This document shows, piece after piece, positions 16,920 through 37,628 of a stretch of 44,243 bases of DNA. The DNA lies in the IMG/VR virus record IMGVR_UViG_3300046616_000070, positions 1 through 44,243 of that record, one strand, 5' to 3'. The stretch is from a virus. Below the pieces are notes generated by a model. It saw nothing but the letters and a program-made list of their open reading frames with translations. It was not told the origin of the DNA and did not search any database. The number at the start of each line of letters is the position of its first letter. Within the stretch, counting starts at the first letter, position 1. A program made the translations under genes and the position numbers.

Positions 16920-18002
16920 ATGGCGACCTACCCTAAAGGCAATAAGTTCATTACTAAATTTATGATCGACGGCGTCCGTCATACTCGGATGCATGATACA
17001 GAAGCTGAGGGCGAAGCGTGGGAGCTGCAAAGCCGCGCTAACCTGAAACTAGGCAAGGCCCTTCCAGTCGCTGAGAAGAAGATCGGCGGCAGCGACGCTG
17101 GTAACCTCGGAAACCTTCTCCGCGAGACGGCAACCCTTCACTGGGCCAAGGGCAAGGACAGCTCCAAGTGCGAGCTGAACGCCACAACCTTCGTCAACTG
17201 GTGCGGCAAGGACATGCCGTCCCGCGATGCCTTCAAGCAGGCCAACATCGACGACTTCGTCGCATACCTCATCAACGAGCGTGAGGTGAGCGGCTCGACG
17301 GTCAATCGGTACTGCTCCGCCATCCGGGTCATGGCCCAGCGGATCATCAAGAAGTCCGACGAACTCCCCACGTTCCCCAAGTATAAAGAGAGCAGGGGCC
17401 GCTTCCGGTTCTTCTCCCACGAGGAGGAGCGCCAGATCACCGCGCTCTGGACGATCTGGGAACGGCATGCCGAACTCGACTTCCTGACCTTCCTGATCGA
17501 CACCGGAGCCCGCACATACACCGAGGGGCAGGCTCTTAAGTGGGACGCCATCCACGCCGACCGGGCCATCTTCTGGGACACCAAGAATGGTGGCTTCCGC
17601 GCGGTGCCGCTGAGCGAGCGGGCCAAGGCTGCGCTGGAGCGGCGGCGTAAACTAAAAGGTAACCAAGCCGGGCCATTCGCCGATCTGGACAAGAGCCACA
17701 TGCGCTGGCTGTGGGAACGCACCCGTGCCCAGCTCCCGCATCTGGAGGATGCCGTCCTGTACTGCACCCGGCACACCTACGGTTCGCGTATGGTCATGAA
17801 CGGGGTACCCCTGTCGGTCTTGAAGAAGCTGATGGGCCACAGCGACATCAAGATGACTGAGCGCTACGCCGTGTTCGAGGACAACGCCGCCTTCGCCGCC
17901 GCGCTTACCGCCTTGAACGGGAACGGCTTTGCACCGCAGCAACCGGCCCTCTCGGTAGTGGTCGATAACGCGAAACTTGCACCTGAAGTCGGGGTGCAGT
18001 AG
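16920..18002 (+). CDS. int: Tyrosine recombinase (phage integrase)
   Basis: 360 aa. The N-terminal arm-binding region (1-55) is followed by a SAM-like core-binding domain (about 60-155) and a catalytic domain. Catalytic residues visible: R198 in GARTYTEGQALKW, K222 in DTKNGGF, R284 in YCTRHTYGS (first His of HxxR replaced by Y281), H307 in MGHSD and nucleophile Y316 in MTERYAVF. It would integrate the phage at attP, probably the tRNA-Leu directly downstream. An integrase upstream of RNAP is typical of temperate marine T7-like phages. It shares the promoter at 16441 with the MarR-like gene. Confidence 0.95.
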   Translation: MATYPKGNKFITKFMIDGVRHTRMHDTEAEGEAWELQSRANLKLGKALPVAEKKIGGSDAGNLGNLLRETATLHWAKGKDSSKCELNATTFVNWCGKDMPSRDAFKQANIDDFVAYLINEREVSGSTVNRYCSAIRVMAQRIIKKSDELPTFPKYKESRGRFRFFSHEEERQITALWTIWERHAELDFLTFLIDTGARTYTEGQALKWDAIHADRAIFWDTKNGGFRAVPLSERAKAALERRRKLKGNQAGPFADLDKSHMRWLWERTRAQLPHLEDAVLYCTRHTYGSRMVMNGVPLSVLKKLMGHSDIKMTERYAVFEDNAAFAAALTALNGNGFAPQQPALSVVVDNAKLAPEVGVQ

Positions 18003-18035
18003 ATACCCCGGCCATGCTGCTCGGGCCTTCGACCG

Positions 18036-18087
18036 GGTGACAATGCGGGTGACAAAGGGGTGCCAATTCGCACCTCTTAGGTGACAA
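18036..18087 (+). repeat. Left arm-type sites: three GGTGACAA direct repeats
   Basis: Exact GGTGACAA at 18036-18043, 18048-18055 and 18080-18087, the last ending one base before the tRNA. Same orientation as four copies to the right of the tRNA. This layout (repeats on both sides of a core) is that of integrase arm sites in attP. A hairpin AGGGGTGC-CAATTC-GCACCTCT (18055-18077 region) lies between copies 2 and 3. Confidence 0.65.
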
Positions 18088-18088
18088 A

Positions 18089-18173
18089 GCGGGCGTGGTG
18101 GAATTGGTAGACACAGCGGCTTTAGGTGCCGCCGCCGAAGGGTTTAGGGGTTCGAGTCCCTTCGCCCGCACCA
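18089..18173 (+). tRNA. tRNA-Leu (anticodon UAG), complete with encoded CCA; probable attP core
   Basis: Acceptor GCGGGCG pairs with CGCCCGC, discriminator A at 18170, CCA at 18171-18173. The anticodon arm GCGGC-TTTAGGT-GCCGC gives anticodon UAG. It has a class II variable region and T arm with TTCGAGT. The tRNA looks functional. A leucine tRNA directly after an integrase, between direct repeats, suggests that it is the site of integration and restores the host tRNA-Leu when the prophage inserts. It may also serve simply as a phage tRNA. Confidence 0.95.
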
Positions 18174-18964: not shown

Positions 18965-21302
18965 CACTCCGGGTGGCGTCGCGCTCATGAAGCGGGCCAT
19001 CGAGCCACTCTCGACTGCCATCAAGAACACGATCACCGATGCCCGGTCAGGCAAGGCTGGTCGCCGTCACGTTGCCATCGCCACTCTGGAGAAGATGGAA
19101 CCCGACGTGATCGCCTACCTCACCACCCGCGAGGTGTTGAGCGGTGCCATGGATCAGGCCGGGCTCACCGCCACCGCCATCAAGATCGGCTCGGCGCTGG
19201 AAGAGGAACTGAGGCTGCAGGCGTTCGATGAACAGCAGCCCGACCTCTACCACACCATCATGCGCCGCCTTAAGGAACGCGGAGCCGGGGCCGGGCATGC
19301 CCGTAAGGTGTTCGTGTTCGCGGCCAACAAGCCCGACGCTCAGGTCGAGCTACCGCGCATCGTCAAGACCGAGAAGATGCACATCGGGGTGCGCCTGATC
19401 GAGCTGATGATCGAGGCCACCGGCTTCGTCGAGACGGTCACCGTGCGCGTCGGCAAGTCCAAGACCCGCTCAGTCATCCGCCCAACCGAGGCGGCAGCGA
19501 AATGGATGGAGGACAAGAACCTCCGCGCGGAACTGATCAGCCCGGCCTATGCGCCCATGGTGGTCCCGCCGCTGGACTGGGAGGGCGTCTCGGGCGGCGG
19601 CTACATCAGCCCATCGTTCAAGGCGCTGCCGCTGGTCAAGAAGGCCAACAAGAAGCAGCACCGCGAGCTGCTGGAGCGGGCCGATCTGTCGCTTGTGCTG
19701 CGGGCTCTCAACGCCATCCAGCGCACGCCATGGCAGGTCAACCAGCAGGTTCTCGACGTGATGCAGGAGGTCTGGGACAAGAGCTACGACATCGCCATGC
19801 CGGGCCGAGAGGACAAGCTGCTGCCTCCGATGCCAGCCGGGCACGCTATCGCCGAGACCTCCGAGGAAGCGTGGGCGAACGTCAATCCCGATGCCAAGAA
19901 GGCATGGATGCGCGAAGCCCGCATGGTCTATGAGGGCAACGCCAGCTCCAAGGGCAAGCGGATGGGCATCAGCCAGATCATCCACACCGCGAAGGAACTG
20001 GCCGGGGAGCCTGAGATATACTTCCCCCACCAGCTCGACTTCCGGGGCCGGGCATACGCCGTGCCCATCGGGCTCAACCCGCAGGGTAGCGACCACGCCA
20101 AGGCGCTGCTGCACTTCGCACACGGCAAGGCGATCACCACGCCCCGCGCTGCGGGCTGGCTCGCGATCAACGGTGCCAACCTCTACGGCTTTGACAAGGC
20201 CGCGTTCGCCGACCGCATCGCATGGGTCGAGGAACGAGAGGAGCAGATCAAGTACACCGCACGGTCCCCGCTGGCTGACCTCTGGTGGACTGATGCGGAC
20301 AAGCCGTGGTGCTTCCTCGCTTGGATTTTCGAGTATGCGAAATTCCTGGGGGAAGGTTATGGGTTCGTCTCGACCTACAACTGCTCGGTCGATGGAAGCT
20401 GCAACGGCCTGCAGCATTTCAGTGCCATGCTCCGCGACCCTGTTGGTGGCGCTGCCGTCAACCTCGTGCCCGGCGATCTGCCTGCTGACATCTACCAGCG
20501 CGTGGCCAACCGCGTCATCGAGAAGCTTAAGGCCGAGGATGGCGACGACTGGGTGGCGCGGGGCTGGCTGGACTTCGGCATCAACCGCAAGATCACCAAG
20601 CGCCCGGTCATGGTGCTGCCCTACGGCGGCACGTTCAAGAGCTGCATGGAGTACGTTCGCGAGGCCGTAGGGGAACGCATCGCAGATGGTGCGGAGAACC
20701 CCTTCGGCGACGAGCTGGGCAAGACCACGGCCACGCTCTCACGCTTCGTATGGGACAGCATCGGCGACGTTGTCGTTGCTGCCCGCACGGCAATGGACTG
20801 GCTGCAGAAGTGTGCTCGCGTCGCGTCTAAGCATGGCGTGCCGCTGACATGGACGACGCCGTCAGGCTTCCCCGTGTTCCAGAGCTACATGGACATCACC
20901 CAGCGGCGCGTGAAGACCCGGCTGCAGGGCAGCTTGACGTACCTCTCCATTGCGGAGGAGGGCGACAAGATCGATGCGGGGCGACAGGCGCTGGCAGTGT
21001 CACCAAACTTCGTCCACTCCAAGGACGCGGCGGCAATGATGCTGACCATCGCACTGGCCCTCGACAATGGCGTCTCCGCGTTCGCCATGATCCATGACAG
21101 CTACGGCACCCACGCCGCCGACATGGACATGCTCGCGGCCTGCCTGAGGCATGCGTTCGTTGACCTCTACGAGGAGCACAATGTCCTCGCCGAGTTCCTC
21201 GCCGCACTCCCTGATGCGGTACGGGCCGAGTGCCCGCCGCCACCACCGCTCGGATCGCTGGACATCCAAGGGGTGCTCCAGTCCGAGTTCTTTTTTGCCT
21301 AG
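18849..21302 (+). CDS. Single-subunit DNA-directed RNA polymerase, T7 gp1-like
   Basis: 817 aa from ATG 18849 (AAAAGGAAG upstream); T7 RNAP is 883 aa. Motif A SVDGSCNGLQHFSAM (catalytic D515), motif B KRPVMVLPYGGTF (K584, Y592; T7 K631, Y639), motif C AMIHDSYGTHA (H749, D750; T7 D812), and the C-terminal EFFFA foot (T7 FAFA). It transcribes the phage middle and late genes from phage-specific promoters, for which candidates are given at 4296, 11156, 12023, 21339 and 31271. Divergence in the specificity loop region is expected because those promoters are not T7-like. Confidence 0.97.
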   Translation: MNAALKLREEHLEQQAQHKGAKRVRDQVAKAKERGLGADTPGGVALMKRAIEPLSTAIKNTITDARSGKAGRRHVAIATLEKMEPDVIAYLTTREVLSGAMDQAGLTATAIKIGSALEEELRLQAFDEQQPDLYHTIMRRLKERGAGAGHARKVFVFAANKPDAQVELPRIVKTEKMHIGVRLIELMIEATGFVETVTVRVGKSKTRSVIRPTEAAAKWMEDKNLRAELISPAYAPMVVPPLDWEGVSGGGYISPSFKALPLVKKANKKQHRELLERADLSLVLRALNAIQRTPWQVNQQVLDVMQEVWDKSYDIAMPGREDKLLPPMPAGHAIAETSEEAWANVNPDAKKAWMREARMVYEGNASSKGKRMGISQIIHTAKELAGEPEIYFPHQLDFRGRAYAVPIGLNPQGSDHAKALLHFAHGKAITTPRAAGWLAINGANLYGFDKAAFADRIAWVEEREEQIKYTARSPLADLWWTDADKPWCFLAWIFEYAKFLGEGYGFVSTYNCSVDGSCNGLQHFSAMLRDPVGGAAVNLVPGDLPADIYQRVANRVIEKLKAEDGDDWVARGWLDFGINRKITKRPVMVLPYGGTFKSCMEYVREAVGERIADGAENPFGDELGKTTATLSRFVWDSIGDVVVAARTAMDWLQKCARVASKHGVPLTWTTPSGFPVFQSYMDITQRRVKTRLQGSLTYLSIAEEGDKIDAGRQALAVSPNFVHSKDAAAMMLTIALALDNGVSAFAMIHDSYGTHAADMDMLAACLRHAFVDLYEEHNVLAEFLAALPDAVRAECPPPPPLGSLDIQGVLQSEFFFA

Positions 21303-27339: not shown

Positions 27340-29303
27340 GATATGACTTCGACTGCGAGACGGACGGCCTTCTTGAAGAGCTGACCGTTACCCACTCTCT
27401 GGTGCTCGGAGACATCGATAAGGGCACCACACATTCCTTCTGCGACCAACCGAACTACCCCAAGGTTGACGAAGGTCTACGCGAGCTGATGGACGCGGAC
27501 TTCATCTGCGGCCACAACGTCATCAAGTTCGACATCCCGGCACTGCAGAAAGTCTACCCGTGGTTCAAGCCACGCGGTGAAGTGCAGGACACGCTGGTCC
27601 TGTCACGCCTCATCAAGGCGGACATCAAGGATGACGACTTCGCCTTCGCCAAGAAGATGGAGCGACGCGGCACTCCGCACTTGTTCCCCAAGCACATGAT
27701 CGGCAAGCACTCGCTCGAAAGCTGGGGCTACCGCCTCGGTGAATGGAAGGGTGACTACTCCGATGCCCGCAAGAAGCTCGCGAAAGAGCAGGGCATCAAG
27801 GACAAGGCCGAGATCATGCGCTTCGTCTGGGGCTCATGGAATAAGGAGATGCAGGACTACTGCGAGCAGGACGTTGCTGTCACTCGCAAGCTGCGTGAGT
27901 TCTTCTGGGCCAAGCTGCAAGATGGATGGGGTGAGCACTGCGTTGAGCTGGAGCACGAGGTTGCGTGGCTGATCGCCCGGCAAGAACGCTACGGCGTCGG
28001 CTTCGACGAACCGGCTGCTGCCAAGTTCTACGCCACGCTCGTCGGCCACCAGCAGAAACTGGACAATGAGCTACAGCGCTCGTTCCCGCCGAAGACCGTC
28101 GAGACTGTGTTCATCCCCAAGGTGAACAACAAGAAGATGGGCTATGTGAAGGGCCAGCCGTTCATCAAGCGGCAGATCGTCCCGTTCAACCCCGGCTCCC
28201 GTCAGCAGCTCGCTGAGCGACTGGAGGCACTGGGCTGGAAGCCACAGACCTACGGCAAGGACGGCATCCCGACCATCGACGACGAAGTGTTGAAGAGCCT
28301 GCCATATCCCGAAGTGGCTCCGCTCAAGGACTACTACGTTATCGAGAAGCGCCTCGGTGCACTCGCCAACGGCAAGCAGGCGTGGCTCAAGAATTGTCGC
28401 GGCGGTCGCATCTATCCTGAGGTGATCACCAACGGCGCAGTCACCGGACGCATGACGCATCGCGTCGTGGTCAACGTCCCCGGCGCCATCGACAAGAAGA
28501 CGGGCGAGAAGCAGCTCTACGGTCTCGAATGCCGTGCGCTGTTCATTCCAAAGAAGGGCAACATCCAAGTCGGCTGCGACGCTGACAGCTTGGAAGGCCG
28601 CGTCATGGGCCACTACATGGGCTTCTATGACGGCGGCGCTTACGCCACCTCGCTGCTCTACGGCAACAAGGCCGAAGGCACCGACAACCACTCGCGCACT
28701 GCTGCGGCGCTGGCGAAGTGGAAGTGTCACCGCGAGACGGCGAAGACCTACTTCTATGCTCTGGTCTACGGTGCGTTCGACGCCAAGCTGGGTGAAATCC
28801 TCGGCGCGACCGGCAGCAAGAAGGCCAAGGAAGCTGTCGGCAAGGAAAGCCGTGAAGCTGTGATGAAGGGCATCCCCGGTCTCGACAGGCTGGTGAATGC
28901 GCTCACATCGAAGGCAAAGGCCAACGGCTTCATCATGGGCCTCGACGGTCGCAAGCTCCGCGTCCGTTCGGCTCACGCCATCCTGAATACGCTGTTCCAG
29001 TCCGCTGGTGCCATCGTCATGAAGGAAGCTGCCATCATCCTCGACACCGAACTGTGCGGCGTGAAGCCAAGCGTGATCGGCAAGATGGGTGCGGAAGCGG
29101 CGACCAAGCTTCGCCCTGGCACCGACTATGAGTTCATGTTGAACTACCATGACGAATGGCAGCTCGACGTTCCCCCTCACAACAAGGACACGGTAGCAAC
29201 GGCGGCAACTGATGCCATCCGTAAAGCTGGCGAGTTCTACAAGTTCCGTTGCCCGCTCAAAGGCAACGCGGATATCGGCGATAGCTGGGCCGCAACGCAC
29301 TGA
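27336..29303 (+). CDS. DNA polymerase I-type, T7 gp5-like
   Basis: 655 aa from TTG 27336 (T7 gp5 is 704). The 3'-5' exonuclease has YDFDCETDGL (D6, E8), CGHNVIKFD and YCEQDVAVTRKL. The polymerase has motif A CDADSLEGR (D415), motif B RETAKTYFYALVYGA and motif C YHDEWQ (D606). The segment between exonuclease and palm, where T7 carries its roughly 76-residue thioredoxin-binding loop, is only about 35-40 residues here, which accounts for most of the size difference. The TTG start is fixed by the exonuclease motif at residue 4. Confidence 0.96.
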   Translation: MRYDFDCETDGLLEELTVTHSLVLGDIDKGTTHSFCDQPNYPKVDEGLRELMDADFICGHNVIKFDIPALQKVYPWFKPRGEVQDTLVLSRLIKADIKDDDFAFAKKMERRGTPHLFPKHMIGKHSLESWGYRLGEWKGDYSDARKKLAKEQGIKDKAEIMRFVWGSWNKEMQDYCEQDVAVTRKLREFFWAKLQDGWGEHCVELEHEVAWLIARQERYGVGFDEPAAAKFYATLVGHQQKLDNELQRSFPPKTVETVFIPKVNNKKMGYVKGQPFIKRQIVPFNPGSRQQLAERLEALGWKPQTYGKDGIPTIDDEVLKSLPYPEVAPLKDYYVIEKRLGALANGKQAWLKNCRGGRIYPEVITNGAVTGRMTHRVVVNVPGAIDKKTGEKQLYGLECRALFIPKKGNIQVGCDADSLEGRVMGHYMGFYDGGAYATSLLYGNKAEGTDNHSRTAAALAKWKCHRETAKTYFYALVYGAFDAKLGEILGATGSKKAKEAVGKESREAVMKGIPGLDRLVNALTSKAKANGFIMGLDGRKLRVRSAHAILNTLFQSAGAIVMKEAAIILDTELCGVKPSVIGKMGAEAATKLRPGTDYEFMLNYHDEWQLDVPPHNKDTVATAATDAIRKAGEFYKFRCPLKGNADIGDSWAATH

Positions 29304-35653: not shown

Positions 35654-35899
35654 ATGTATCGTCGCATCCTGCGGCGGTGCGGGCGGCTTCCCCTGTTCCG
35701 CCTCGGTGCGGCACTGGTCATCTTGAGCCAGATCATTGAGGCCCTCGACGCACTGGTCGGTCTCGACCTCGCGTCCATCCTCCCGGCACACTACAACGTC
35801 GCCGCTATTGTCACGGCCATCGGCCTGCTCAAGATCGTCCTTAGGGGCCTCTTCGTTGTCGCTTCAATGTTCCAAACCAAACCGGAGGAGGGCAGCTAA
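35654..35899 (+). CDS. Probable holin
   Basis: 81 aa with basic N-terminus (MYRRILRRCGRLPLFR), a hydrophobic segment (LGAALVILSQIIEALDALVGL), a second one (NVAAIVTAIGLLKIVLRGLFVVASMF) and a charged tail. Size, topology and placement after the endolysin support a class II holin. TAATG overlap with the next gene. Confidence 0.65.
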   Translation: MYRRILRRCGRLPLFRLGAALVILSQIIEALDALVGLDLASILPAHYNVAAIVTAIGLLKIVLRGLFVVASMFQTKPEEGS

Positions 35900-36300
35900 T
35901 GTGGCTGCTCACCTTCGCACTCAATCTCTTCTCCAGTCCCATACTCGGCAAAGTCGCCGACTACCTCACGAAGCGCTCCAACGACCAAGCCGTCATGCAC
36001 GGCCAAGACATGACCGCAGCCACGTCCATCGTGGTCGCGCAAATCCAAGCGGAGATCGCAGCCCGTCAAGCCCAGCTCGCGTTCTCCTCGCGTCACGACA
36101 AACTCGTGGCATGGATCGTCGCGCCGTTCATCCTCCATGTGTGGATGCTCGTGCTCGACAGATGCTTCCATCTCAACTGGAACATCGAGATGCTACCCGA
36201 CCCACTCAACGACTGGGAAGGTCGCATCCTTCTATCGTTCTTCATCCTCTCGCCCGCAGCTAACCTTGCAAAGGCGGCTCTCGGGCTGGTGAAGAAGTAG
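35899..36300 (+). CDS. Second lysis membrane protein, 3TM-holin-like (GTA type)
   Basis: 133 aa. N-terminal hydrophobic segment (WLLTFALNLFSSPILGKV), a helical stretch rich in Ala/Gln (EIAARQAQLAFSSRHDK), then WIVAPFILHVWMLVLDRCF and a third segment, LLSFFILSPAANLAKAALGLV. This resembles the holin family of three TM segments found in alphaproteobacterial gene transfer agents. It could be a holin, pinholin or antiholin partner to the preceding gene. Confidence 0.6.
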   Translation: MWLLTFALNLFSSPILGKVADYLTKRSNDQAVMHGQDMTAATSIVVAQIQAEIAARQAQLAFSSRHDKLVAWIVAPFILHVWMLVLDRCFHLNWNIEMLPDPLNDWEGRILLSFFILSPAANLAKAALGLVKK

Positions 36301-36352
36301 CAACATGGCCGGTGCCTCTACAGCCTCATCAACTGTACGCGCCGGTCCTCTT

Positions 36353-36442
36353 CTGGATGTAGCTTATAGGGTAAAGCAGCGGCCCACATGCTTGCGTGTG
36401 ATGAAGTCCGTTGAAGGTGGTTCGAGTCCTCCCGTCCAGCCA
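36353..36442 (+). ncRNA. tRNA-like structure with hairpin inserted in the anticodon loop
   Basis: Acceptor CTGGATG (36353-36359) pairs with CGTCCAG (36433-36439), followed by CCA. D arm TA-GCTT-ATAGGGTA-AAGC is typical of tRNA. T arm GGTGG-TTCGAGT-CCTCC has one T-T mismatch. The anticodon stem GCGG/CCGT is present with a 4-base variable loop TGAA, but the loop holds a 6-bp hairpin CACATG-CTTG-CGTGTG (CUUG tetraloop). No normal anticodon can be read. It lies 52 bp after the holin-like gene and 188 bp before the capsid gene. It may be a processing signal cut by RNase P/Z, a degenerate tRNA, or a regulatory mimic. Confidence 0.75.
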
Positions 36443-36470
36443 ACTACACAATCCATAGCGGAAAGCAACG

Positions 36471-36486
36471 TGCCCCTTTTAAGGGG
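36471..36486 (+). other. Hairpin CCCCT-TTTA-AGGGG in the capsid leader
   Basis: Five G-C/A-T pairs closed by a TTTA loop, with flanking AACG/CGTT that could extend it. No T-run follows, so not a standard terminator. Part of the structured leader between the tRNA-like element and the capsid gene. Confidence 0.5.
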
Positions 36487-36526
36487 GCGTTCAGGTCCAA
36501 GACCACCGACTAGACGAAGCCTCTTG

Positions 36527-36560
36527 GCTCACTCTTGATGCATCTGCGGATGCACTGAGC
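36527..36560 (+). other. Extended hairpin in the capsid gene leader
   Basis: TGCATC (36539-36544), tetraloop TGCG, GATGCA (36549-36554) form a perfect stem, enclosed by GCTCA (36527-36531) and TGAGC (36556-36560). A GGTTCGAGG sequence at 36591-36599 recalls a T loop, but no acceptor stem fits well. The element may control capsid mRNA stability or translation. Confidence 0.5.
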
Positions 36561-36630
36561 GTGAATAACCTTTTGCGTCTTCCGATGGCGGGTTCGAGGC
36601 CACTTCCTCAATCCACTATGGAGACTACCA

Positions 36631-37569
36631 ATGACCGACACCGTCGTGTCCCGCACCGGCCAAGTTAACCACACTGGCGATGCACTCGCACTATTCCTCA
36701 AGGTGTTCTCGGGTGAAGTTCTCACCGAGTTCGAGCGCACCACGCTGTTCACCGACAAGCACTTCATCCGACAGATCACGTCGGGCAAGTCGGCGCAGTT
36801 CCCGCTGATCGGTAAGGCGTCCAGCCGTTACCATACGCCCGGTCAGTGGATCGATGGCACTGTCATCGACCACGCCGAGAAGGTGATCACCATCGACGAT
36901 CTGCTGATCGCTGATACGTTCATCGCCAACATCGACGAAGCCATGAACCACTACGACGTTCGTGGTCCTTACTCGCAGGAGCTGGGCCGTGAGCTGGCTC
37001 AGGCGTTCGACACCAACGTCGCTCGCGTCATGGTTCTGGCCGCTCGTGCCTCGAACCCGCTGGCCGGTCGTCCGGGCGGCACCCGCATCTCCAACGCCAA
37101 CATGGACACCGACAAGGACGCTCTGCGTACCTCGCTGTTCTCGGCTGCTCAGAAGCTCGATGAGAAGAACGTCCCCGCTGAAGATCGCACCGCGTTCTTC
37201 CGCCCGGCCCAGTTCTACATCATGGCTCAGGACACCACGCTCATCAACAAGTTCTACGGTGAGACGGGTGGCGATCTGGGCAAGGGCTCGCTGGAGACCG
37301 TCGCTGGCTTCCCGATTGTGAAGTCGAACAACGTTCCGGCTGTCGATGACACCGCGAACACCGCCGTTCACGCCAAGTATCGCGCTGACTTCAGCAAGAC
37401 CGTGGGCGTCATCTCGAACAAGATGGCCGCTGGCACCGTCAAGCTGATGGACCTCGCGATGGACGCTCAGTACGAGCCCCGCCGTCAGGGCACCTTCATG
37501 GTCGCCAAGTACGCGGTCGGCCACGACTGGCTGCGCCCTGAGTGCGCGGTCGAACTCTACAAGGCGTAA
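36631..37569 (+). CDS. Major capsid protein, T7 gp10-like
   Basis: 312 aa (T7 gp10A 345). GDALALFLKVFSGEVLTEFERTTLFTDKHFIRQITSGKSAQFPLIGKA, HTPGQWIDG and the C-terminal GVISNKMAAGTVKLMDL are typical of HK97-fold T7 capsids. TGGAG precedes the ATG. Gene order portal, scaffold, lysis cassette, capsid is unusual: in T7 capsid directly follows the scaffold gene. A strong terminator follows. Confidence 0.96.
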   Translation: MTDTVVSRTGQVNHTGDALALFLKVFSGEVLTEFERTTLFTDKHFIRQITSGKSAQFPLIGKASSRYHTPGQWIDGTVIDHAEKVITIDDLLIADTFIANIDEAMNHYDVRGPYSQELGRELAQAFDTNVARVMVLAARASNPLAGRPGGTRISNANMDTDKDALRTSLFSAAQKLDEKNVPAEDRTAFFRPAQFYIMAQDTTLINKFYGETGGDLGKGSLETVAGFPIVKSNNVPAVDDTANTAVHAKYRADFSKTVGVISNKMAAGTVKLMDLAMDAQYEPRRQGTFMVAKYAVGHDWLRPECAVELYKA

Positions 37570-37583
37570 GCCTTCCACCCATG

Positions 37584-37612
37584 CCGGGGACCTTCGGGTC
37601 CTCGGTTTTTTT
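37584..37612 (+). terminator. Strong intrinsic terminator after the capsid gene (T7 T-phi-like)
   Basis: CCGGGGACC-TTCG-GGTCCTCGG (37584-37605) forms 9 pairs including one G-T, with a stable TTCG loop, followed by seven T. It is in the same place as T7 T-phi, which reduces transcription of tail genes relative to capsid. Confidence 0.93.
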
Positions 37613-37628
37613 CGTTTGAAGGATCACA

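Follow-up and report, generated by a model that had tools for sequence, protein, structure and literature searches.

What is an RNA with the body of a tRNA and no readable anticodon doing directly in front of the capsid gene of a phage? The question is raised by positions 36353-36442 (plus strand) of a viral record of 44,243 bases, which was analysed at its full length and is called the window here. The record carries a 127-base repeat at both ends, and its gene set includes a T7-type RNA polymerase, an integrase beside a tRNA-Leu, a portal, a head-assembly protein and a major head protein; this combination therefore identifies a temperate T7-like phage. The integrase gene is followed by tRNA-Leu(UAG) (window 16920-18173), which is the temperate T7-like arrangement also found in LUZ100 and the pelagiphages, and a tRNA-Leu is present in many relatives of the phage. 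A 93% relative lies within the genome of Rhodopseudomonas palustris XCP, where the corresponding site holds a tRNA-Asn and a tRNA-Trp, which suggests that the host belongs to the group of that strain. As stated in the initial annotation, the element lies upstream of the capsid gene; it is in sense orientation, 188 nt from the major head protein gene (mcp; 36631-37569, plus strand; phrog_267, E 2.4e-90). The site it occupies, referred to here as the slot, is directly preceded by an ORF of 133 aa (35899-36300, plus strand) that matches a family of unknown function (phrog_12264, E 1.6e-13). Directly 3' of the capsid gene, a consensus scan alone placed a terminator-like hairpin, GCCGGGGACC-TTCG-GGTCCTCGGT, followed by a T run (37583-37615, plus strand). 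Upstream of the slot, a repeated-motif search for a phage promoter gave nothing clear, and a sigma-70-type site was not found.

The tRNA derivation of the element, as initially proposed, was confirmed. Rfam RF00005 matched 36353-36440 over model positions 1-71 with 39.6 bits (E 5.1e-5; gathering cut-off 29), a covariance model built from normal slot tRNAs only gave 41.1 bits (E 5.8e-11), and ARAGORN reported 36353-36441 as 'tRNA-???'. A chance origin of the fold was ruled out by the E-values of the covariance models. Reading the stems from the sequence, we found that the acceptor stem (36353-36359/36433-36439; CTGGATG/CGTCCAG) had 7 of 7 pairs with one G.U, the stem of the D arm (36362-36377; GCTT/AAGC) had 4 of 4 pairs, and the stem of the T arm (36416-36432; GGTGG/CCTCC) had 4 of 5 pairs with one U.U. 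The three arms, which the initial annotation called intact, are nearly so. The bases for tertiary contacts (U8, A14, the GG of the D loop and the TTC-A of the T loop, TTCGAGT) were all present, and the acceptor and T stems together make a stacked domain of approximately 12 bp (7 + 5 pairs, including the U.U mismatch) with the T loop, which is an acceptor-T domain of the RNase P/RNase Z type. The CCA end (36440-36442) had also been called intact; it follows straight after G72 with no separate discriminator base and so is not a clean N73-CCA; either N73 is missing or C73 is followed by CAA. This offset and the missing discriminator could impair processing. The minimum-energy fold was the cloverleaf, at an ordinary folding energy (z = 0.30). 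The body was nearest to slot tRNA-Asn, with up to 74% identity, and the parent was probably of the tRNA-Asn type. The window showed no sign of an assembly error, the element being known from this one record only; a parallel case for the assembly question is the tRNA-like of the relative L002, which is identical in two contigs.

The anticodon arm of the element departs from that of a tRNA. The residual anticodon stem (36379-36382/36408-36411) consists of four pairs (GCGG/CCGT), and alignment to the Rfam tRNA model placed 25 nt (36383-36407, plus strand) where the model has 9 positions. No reading of the element yielded U33 with a 7-nt loop, and it should therefore not decode, in agreement with the initial annotation. 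The 25 nt include the hairpin CACATG-CTTG-CGTGTG (36385-36400), which had been described as perfect; it contains one U.G pair, and shuffling of the 25 nt gave a stem of at least six pairs in 937 of 5000 trials (19%). Since so many shuffles equal it, the inserted hairpin is not evidence by itself, and we dropped it as a sign of function. The element is a real tRNA-derived fold in which the acceptor, D and T arms are near intact and the decoding loop is lost. The extra length, 25 as against 9 nt, equals that of the hairpin (16 nt) and could be taken for a small spliced intron in a functional tRNA. Removal of any 16 contiguous nt, however, never produced U33, no bulge-helix-bulge was present, and a group I intron would need a much longer insert; the bulge-helix-bulge splicing endonuclease is not known from bacteria. 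As U33 was never recovered, we rejected this explanation and give it next to no credence.

Relatives were gathered by capsid protein from viral contigs, genomes and named phages, which gave 339 distinct capsid-upstream regions. The slot contained about 29 tRNA lineages (grouped by eye), located approximately 80-320 nt before mcp, and every one found was sense to mcp. The types were Asn, Trp, Cys, Phe, Arg, Tyr, Glu, Met and Gly, with tRNA-Asn present in the LUZ100 clade, the RHEph01 clade, L003, L016, L031, L126, L128, L153, L156 and L481. A tRNA-Asn is already annotated in the slot of RHEph01 and RHEph21 (Rhizobium) and LUZ100 (Pseudomonas), where it lies, like the element, between the capsid-assembly genes and mcp on the same strand, with a conserved leader RNA like that of the window behind it. 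The earlier statement that no described equivalent was known at this place was therefore not borne out, and tRNAs occur at the same place in many uncultivated relatives as well. The tRNAs of RHEph01, RHEph21 and LUZ100 nevertheless carry a normal GUU anticodon, whereas the window element has no readable one. The search for the same element upstream of related capsid genes, which had been proposed as a check, found no homologue of the exact element, and among 50,697 phage records there was no close homologue, the only match being a 28-nt piece in Bacillus phage G (E 0.8). One set of 62 capsid loci contained no slot tRNA, and no new slot tRNAs were found in 392 genomes of the family of R. palustris XCP, 397 genomes of its order or 399 genomes of the genus of P. 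putida HAI-2, each of which held few related capsid loci. A search of the open-access literature for a tRNA upstream of a capsid gene and for RNase P cutting of phage mRNA found no description of the slot.

Comparison of close relatives revealed that the occupant of the slot changes rapidly. Among phages with 92-100% identical capsid proteins, this site was either empty or contained different tRNAs, an endonuclease VII gene or genes on the reverse strand. In particular, L001 (98% capsid protein identity) lacked the element, and its flanks, 51 nt on the 5' side and 189 nt on the 3' side, were 100% identical to the window; the element is therefore optional. The slot of L002 (97% capsid identity) held an unrelated tRNA-like with an enlarged loop, L004-L009 and L019 had no tRNA in the slot, and most other close relatives also lacked the element. 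Two phage regions that are related to each other lie in the contig of L001 (G001, 78,980 bases); in one of them the slot is empty, and the other carries an L002-type tRNA-like (78522-78605). In the RHEph01 clade, the slot held Asn (RHEph01), Cys (L097) or reverse-strand genes, while the leader RNA was nearly constant, and in the L383 clade, it held an odd-armed tRNA, an endonuclease VII gene (PF02945, E 1e-24) or nothing. The endonuclease VII gene at L387 667-1053 occupies the slot that holds a tRNA in L382-L386, and sequence similar to that of the L387 slot was found in L388, L390, L392, L399 and L412; this gene in a tRNA slot suggests homing or cargo exchange. Judged from these sequence comparisons, the slot is a cargo-exchange site and its tRNA is dispensable.

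These comparisons bear on two explanations of the element. The first is that it is a plain relic, a tRNA acquired earlier and now in neutral decay, with the anticodon loop as the first part hit. The presence/absence polymorphism between identical flanks in L001, the non-homologous replacement in L002 and the chance-like inserted hairpin all fit this explanation, to which we assign an even chance. The second is that slot tRNAs, including the dead ones, act as punctuation and are kept by selection because RNase P/RNase Z cut there and so release the leader of the capsid mRNA; decoding would be irrelevant, so isotype and anticodon could drift or vanish. The sense orientation of all slot tRNAs at approximately 80-320 nt upstream of mcp and the many isotypes, dead ones included, with bodies kept are in line with such selection. 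In contrast, the lack of a tRNA in L001, L004-L009 and L019, in L001 between identical flanks, argues that cleavage is unneeded there. Since L001 and most close relatives lack the element, it is not required for capsid mRNA maturation. The initial annotation had named absence from related phages and decay of the acceptor and T stems as signs against a role; the absence was indeed observed, with the slot often empty and the element not conserved at this place, but the acceptor and T stems are undecayed here.

In contrast to the changing occupant, conserved RNAs were found on both sides of the slot. Just 5' of it, a covarying hairpin (36307-36347, plus strand) is followed by CCTCTT in a terminator-like position; 96.4% of its cells were paired compared with 84.0% after shuffling, and its covariation score was 0.368 against 0.126 (0 of 500 shuffles), with slid versions reaching at most 0.091. 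This hairpin, which has a conserved CCUCU/AC internal loop, is common to the window, L004-L008, L016, L017 and L019 and covaries strongly whether or not a tRNA lies behind it. Between the slot and mcp, alignment and RNAalifold covarying pairs revealed a conserved capsid-leader RNA (36467-36580, plus strand), composed in the window of a hairpin, AACGTGCCCCTTTTAAGGGGGCGTT (36467-36491, plus strand), and a motif, TTGGCTCA...GTGAATAACC (36524-36570, plus strand). In general form, it is a hairpin followed by a GGCYC...(hairpin)...GGACAACC motif, also written GGCYC...ACAACC, with a peak 60-100 nt before the start codon. By the same alignment and covarying pairs, the leader RNA recurs across T7-like phages with a capsid protein identity of only about one half; it is also present in L010-L016, L031, L084, L086, L092 and others. 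The motif occurred near mcp in 68 of 332 regions, compared with 3 of 332 further upstream and 1 of 332 after shuffling, and no Rfam family matched the leader RNA. An outer-stem test of this RNA was badly anchored (mean stem 4.97 versus 4.61 shuffled) and was not used. The conserved capsid-leader RNA beside the slot may be a better lead than the element itself.

For LUZ100, RNA 3' ends have been published (PMC10134795), the only public RNA-end data close to a slot tRNA, and the GenBank terminator features of this phage match the -60 to +40 stretches around each end analysed there; the intrinsic terminators T16 and T19 fit this placement. The LUZ100 phi7 promoter lies upstream of the slot tRNA, and the end T14 at 20828-20829 falls 1-2 nt before the 5' end of the tRNA-Asn (20831), a coincidence with a chance probability of about 0.003. 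Both observations would be expected if slot tRNAs acted as punctuation. However, this position is also where a hairpin, GCUCCGU...ACGGAGC, with UUUC behind it comes to an end; we therefore withdrew T14 as proof of RNase P cutting, as it can be accounted for just as well by termination or trimming. Hairpins of this sort lie before several slot tRNAs, and the LUZ100 end T15 lies inside the first hairpin of the capsid-leader RNA.

To what extent is the loss of decoding shared by other slot tRNAs? Clearly unreadable anticodon arms were found in the window, L002, L014 (6-nt loop) and L374 (14-nt loop). Four further cases are ambiguous: L310 and the second element of RHEph21, each with a 5-nt loop or a 4-bp stem with a 7-nt loop; L370; and the L369/L382 group, possibly a tRNA-Arg(CCU) with a long variable arm. 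As an alternative readable anticodon arm exists in each, we withdrew all four from the clearly dead. Two similar tRNA-likes in distantly related phages, L082 1745-1814 and L310 1346-1415, share the 5-nt (or 4-bp stem with 7-nt loop) anticodon arm and differ by several paired changes in the D, anticodon and T stems. At other sites of these phages, the 31 tRNAs fetched and the one of the window itself were all normal, mostly Leu beside the integrase, and one other (G008/L015) was unreadable. The latter, L015 1134-1202 (G008 27620-27688; 46 bits), is a tRNA-like with an unreadable anticodon arm approximately 1.8 kb upstream of mcp and outside the slot. Dead anticodons were in excess in the slot with p = 0.009 when the four ambiguous cases were counted and p = 0.18 for the clear cases only, for lineages grouped by eye. 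This enrichment is suggestive only, because its significance needs the ambiguous cases and the Leu genes used for comparison are related to each other.

The bodies of these tRNAs are informative about decay. The clearly dead slot tRNAs were near-complete, with at most 1-2 unpaired positions, and a structure-blind profile run without filters over the 339 regions found almost no further body-decayed pieces, which speaks against a plain relic, although the covariance model favours intact bodies and some detection bias remains in this comparison. On the other side, the second element of RHEph21 has lost acceptor pairs and kept only four, as ordinary decay predicts, which fits a relic and counts against cargo that is kept processable. 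Additionally, L385 and L393 have a common odd-armed slot tRNA that is 92% identical, compared with 46-79% for the flanks and 74% for the leader RNA, and it shows no change in the acceptor, D or T stems (about 1.5e-4 at 24% divergence). Selection of slot tRNAs as cleavage sites would produce this pattern, but it may also come from cassette recombination, and this tRNA may be readable, as a tRNA-Arg(CCU) with a long variable arm. Relic and punctuation differ only in whether the element is kept for a purpose; we lean towards a relic or neutral cargo, and we consider punctuation unlikely.

A tRNA shape without a decoding anticodon, which is the mark of phage tRNA-like stable RNAs, is also what we found in the element. 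T5 RNA1/RNA2 and T4 species 1/rnaC are likewise phage-encoded, tRNA-shaped and without an assigned decoding role, and the slot-tRNA covariance model finds three annotated stable RNAs of these phages, two of them annotated as tRNA-like, at approximately 20 bits. The matches are L568 10513-10581 and 12963-13030 (T5 RNA1 and RNA2) and L569 1910-2001 (T4 rnaC). In contrast to the element, the T5/T4 RNAs sit in tRNA clusters rather than a capsid leader and score lower, and we claim no homology. Mycobacteriophage cluster C1 tRNAs also have anticodon loops that depart from those of host tRNAs; these loops are mutated with decoding kept (PMC10264068), whereas in the element a 25-nt replacement abolishes decoding. 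Altered anticodon loops in phage tRNAs are predicted to resist anticodon nucleases (PMC10264068), and a role as a decoy or nuclease-resistant tRNA against host tRNA-targeting defences would also agree with the quick turnover of slot isotypes. The published case, however, keeps decoding and changes single loop bases, while here both decoding and the loop that nucleases recognise are gone, which makes counter-defence very improbable, although a decoy for acceptor-end enzymes is conceivable.

We favour, with a probability of about 0.6, the reading that the element is exchangeable tRNA cargo that has lost decoding and should still be cut by tRNA-processing enzymes, which is compatible with both a function and a relic. 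It builds on a tRNA fold without a readable anticodon, dispensable and situated in a slot of rapid turnover, as observed here. A probable tRNA-Asn gene would have entered the slot between the covarying hairpin and the capsid-leader RNA; replacement of its anticodon loop by 25 nt would have ended decoding and left intact the acceptor-T domain recognised by host tRNA-processing enzymes. The element would then be co-transcribed with the capsid mRNA, a step argued by analogy with LUZ100 since no promoter was recognised upstream of the slot. RNase P and 3' processing enzymes would excise it as a putatively stable tRNA-like RNA, and the remaining capsid mRNA would begin just downstream of the element. 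That the slot is selected for tRNA shape rather than anticodon, with RNase P/RNase Z excision setting the capsid mRNA 5' end, is in our estimate a slim prospect, and dead tRNAs such as the window element would be its giveaway if it were true. Mitochondrial tRNA punctuation, in which tRNA shapes mark cuts in polycistronic RNA, would be the counterpart; unlike there, most relatives lack the element, and cleavage here is putative.

Why phages carry tRNA genes and what their stable tRNA-like RNAs do is an old open question, and the slot offers a natural experiment in which near-identical phages have a live tRNA, a dead one or no tRNA at all. If dead tRNAs still shape the capsid mRNA, the slot would be a phage example of tRNA punctuation; if not, it still shows the gain, swap and loss of tRNA cargo.
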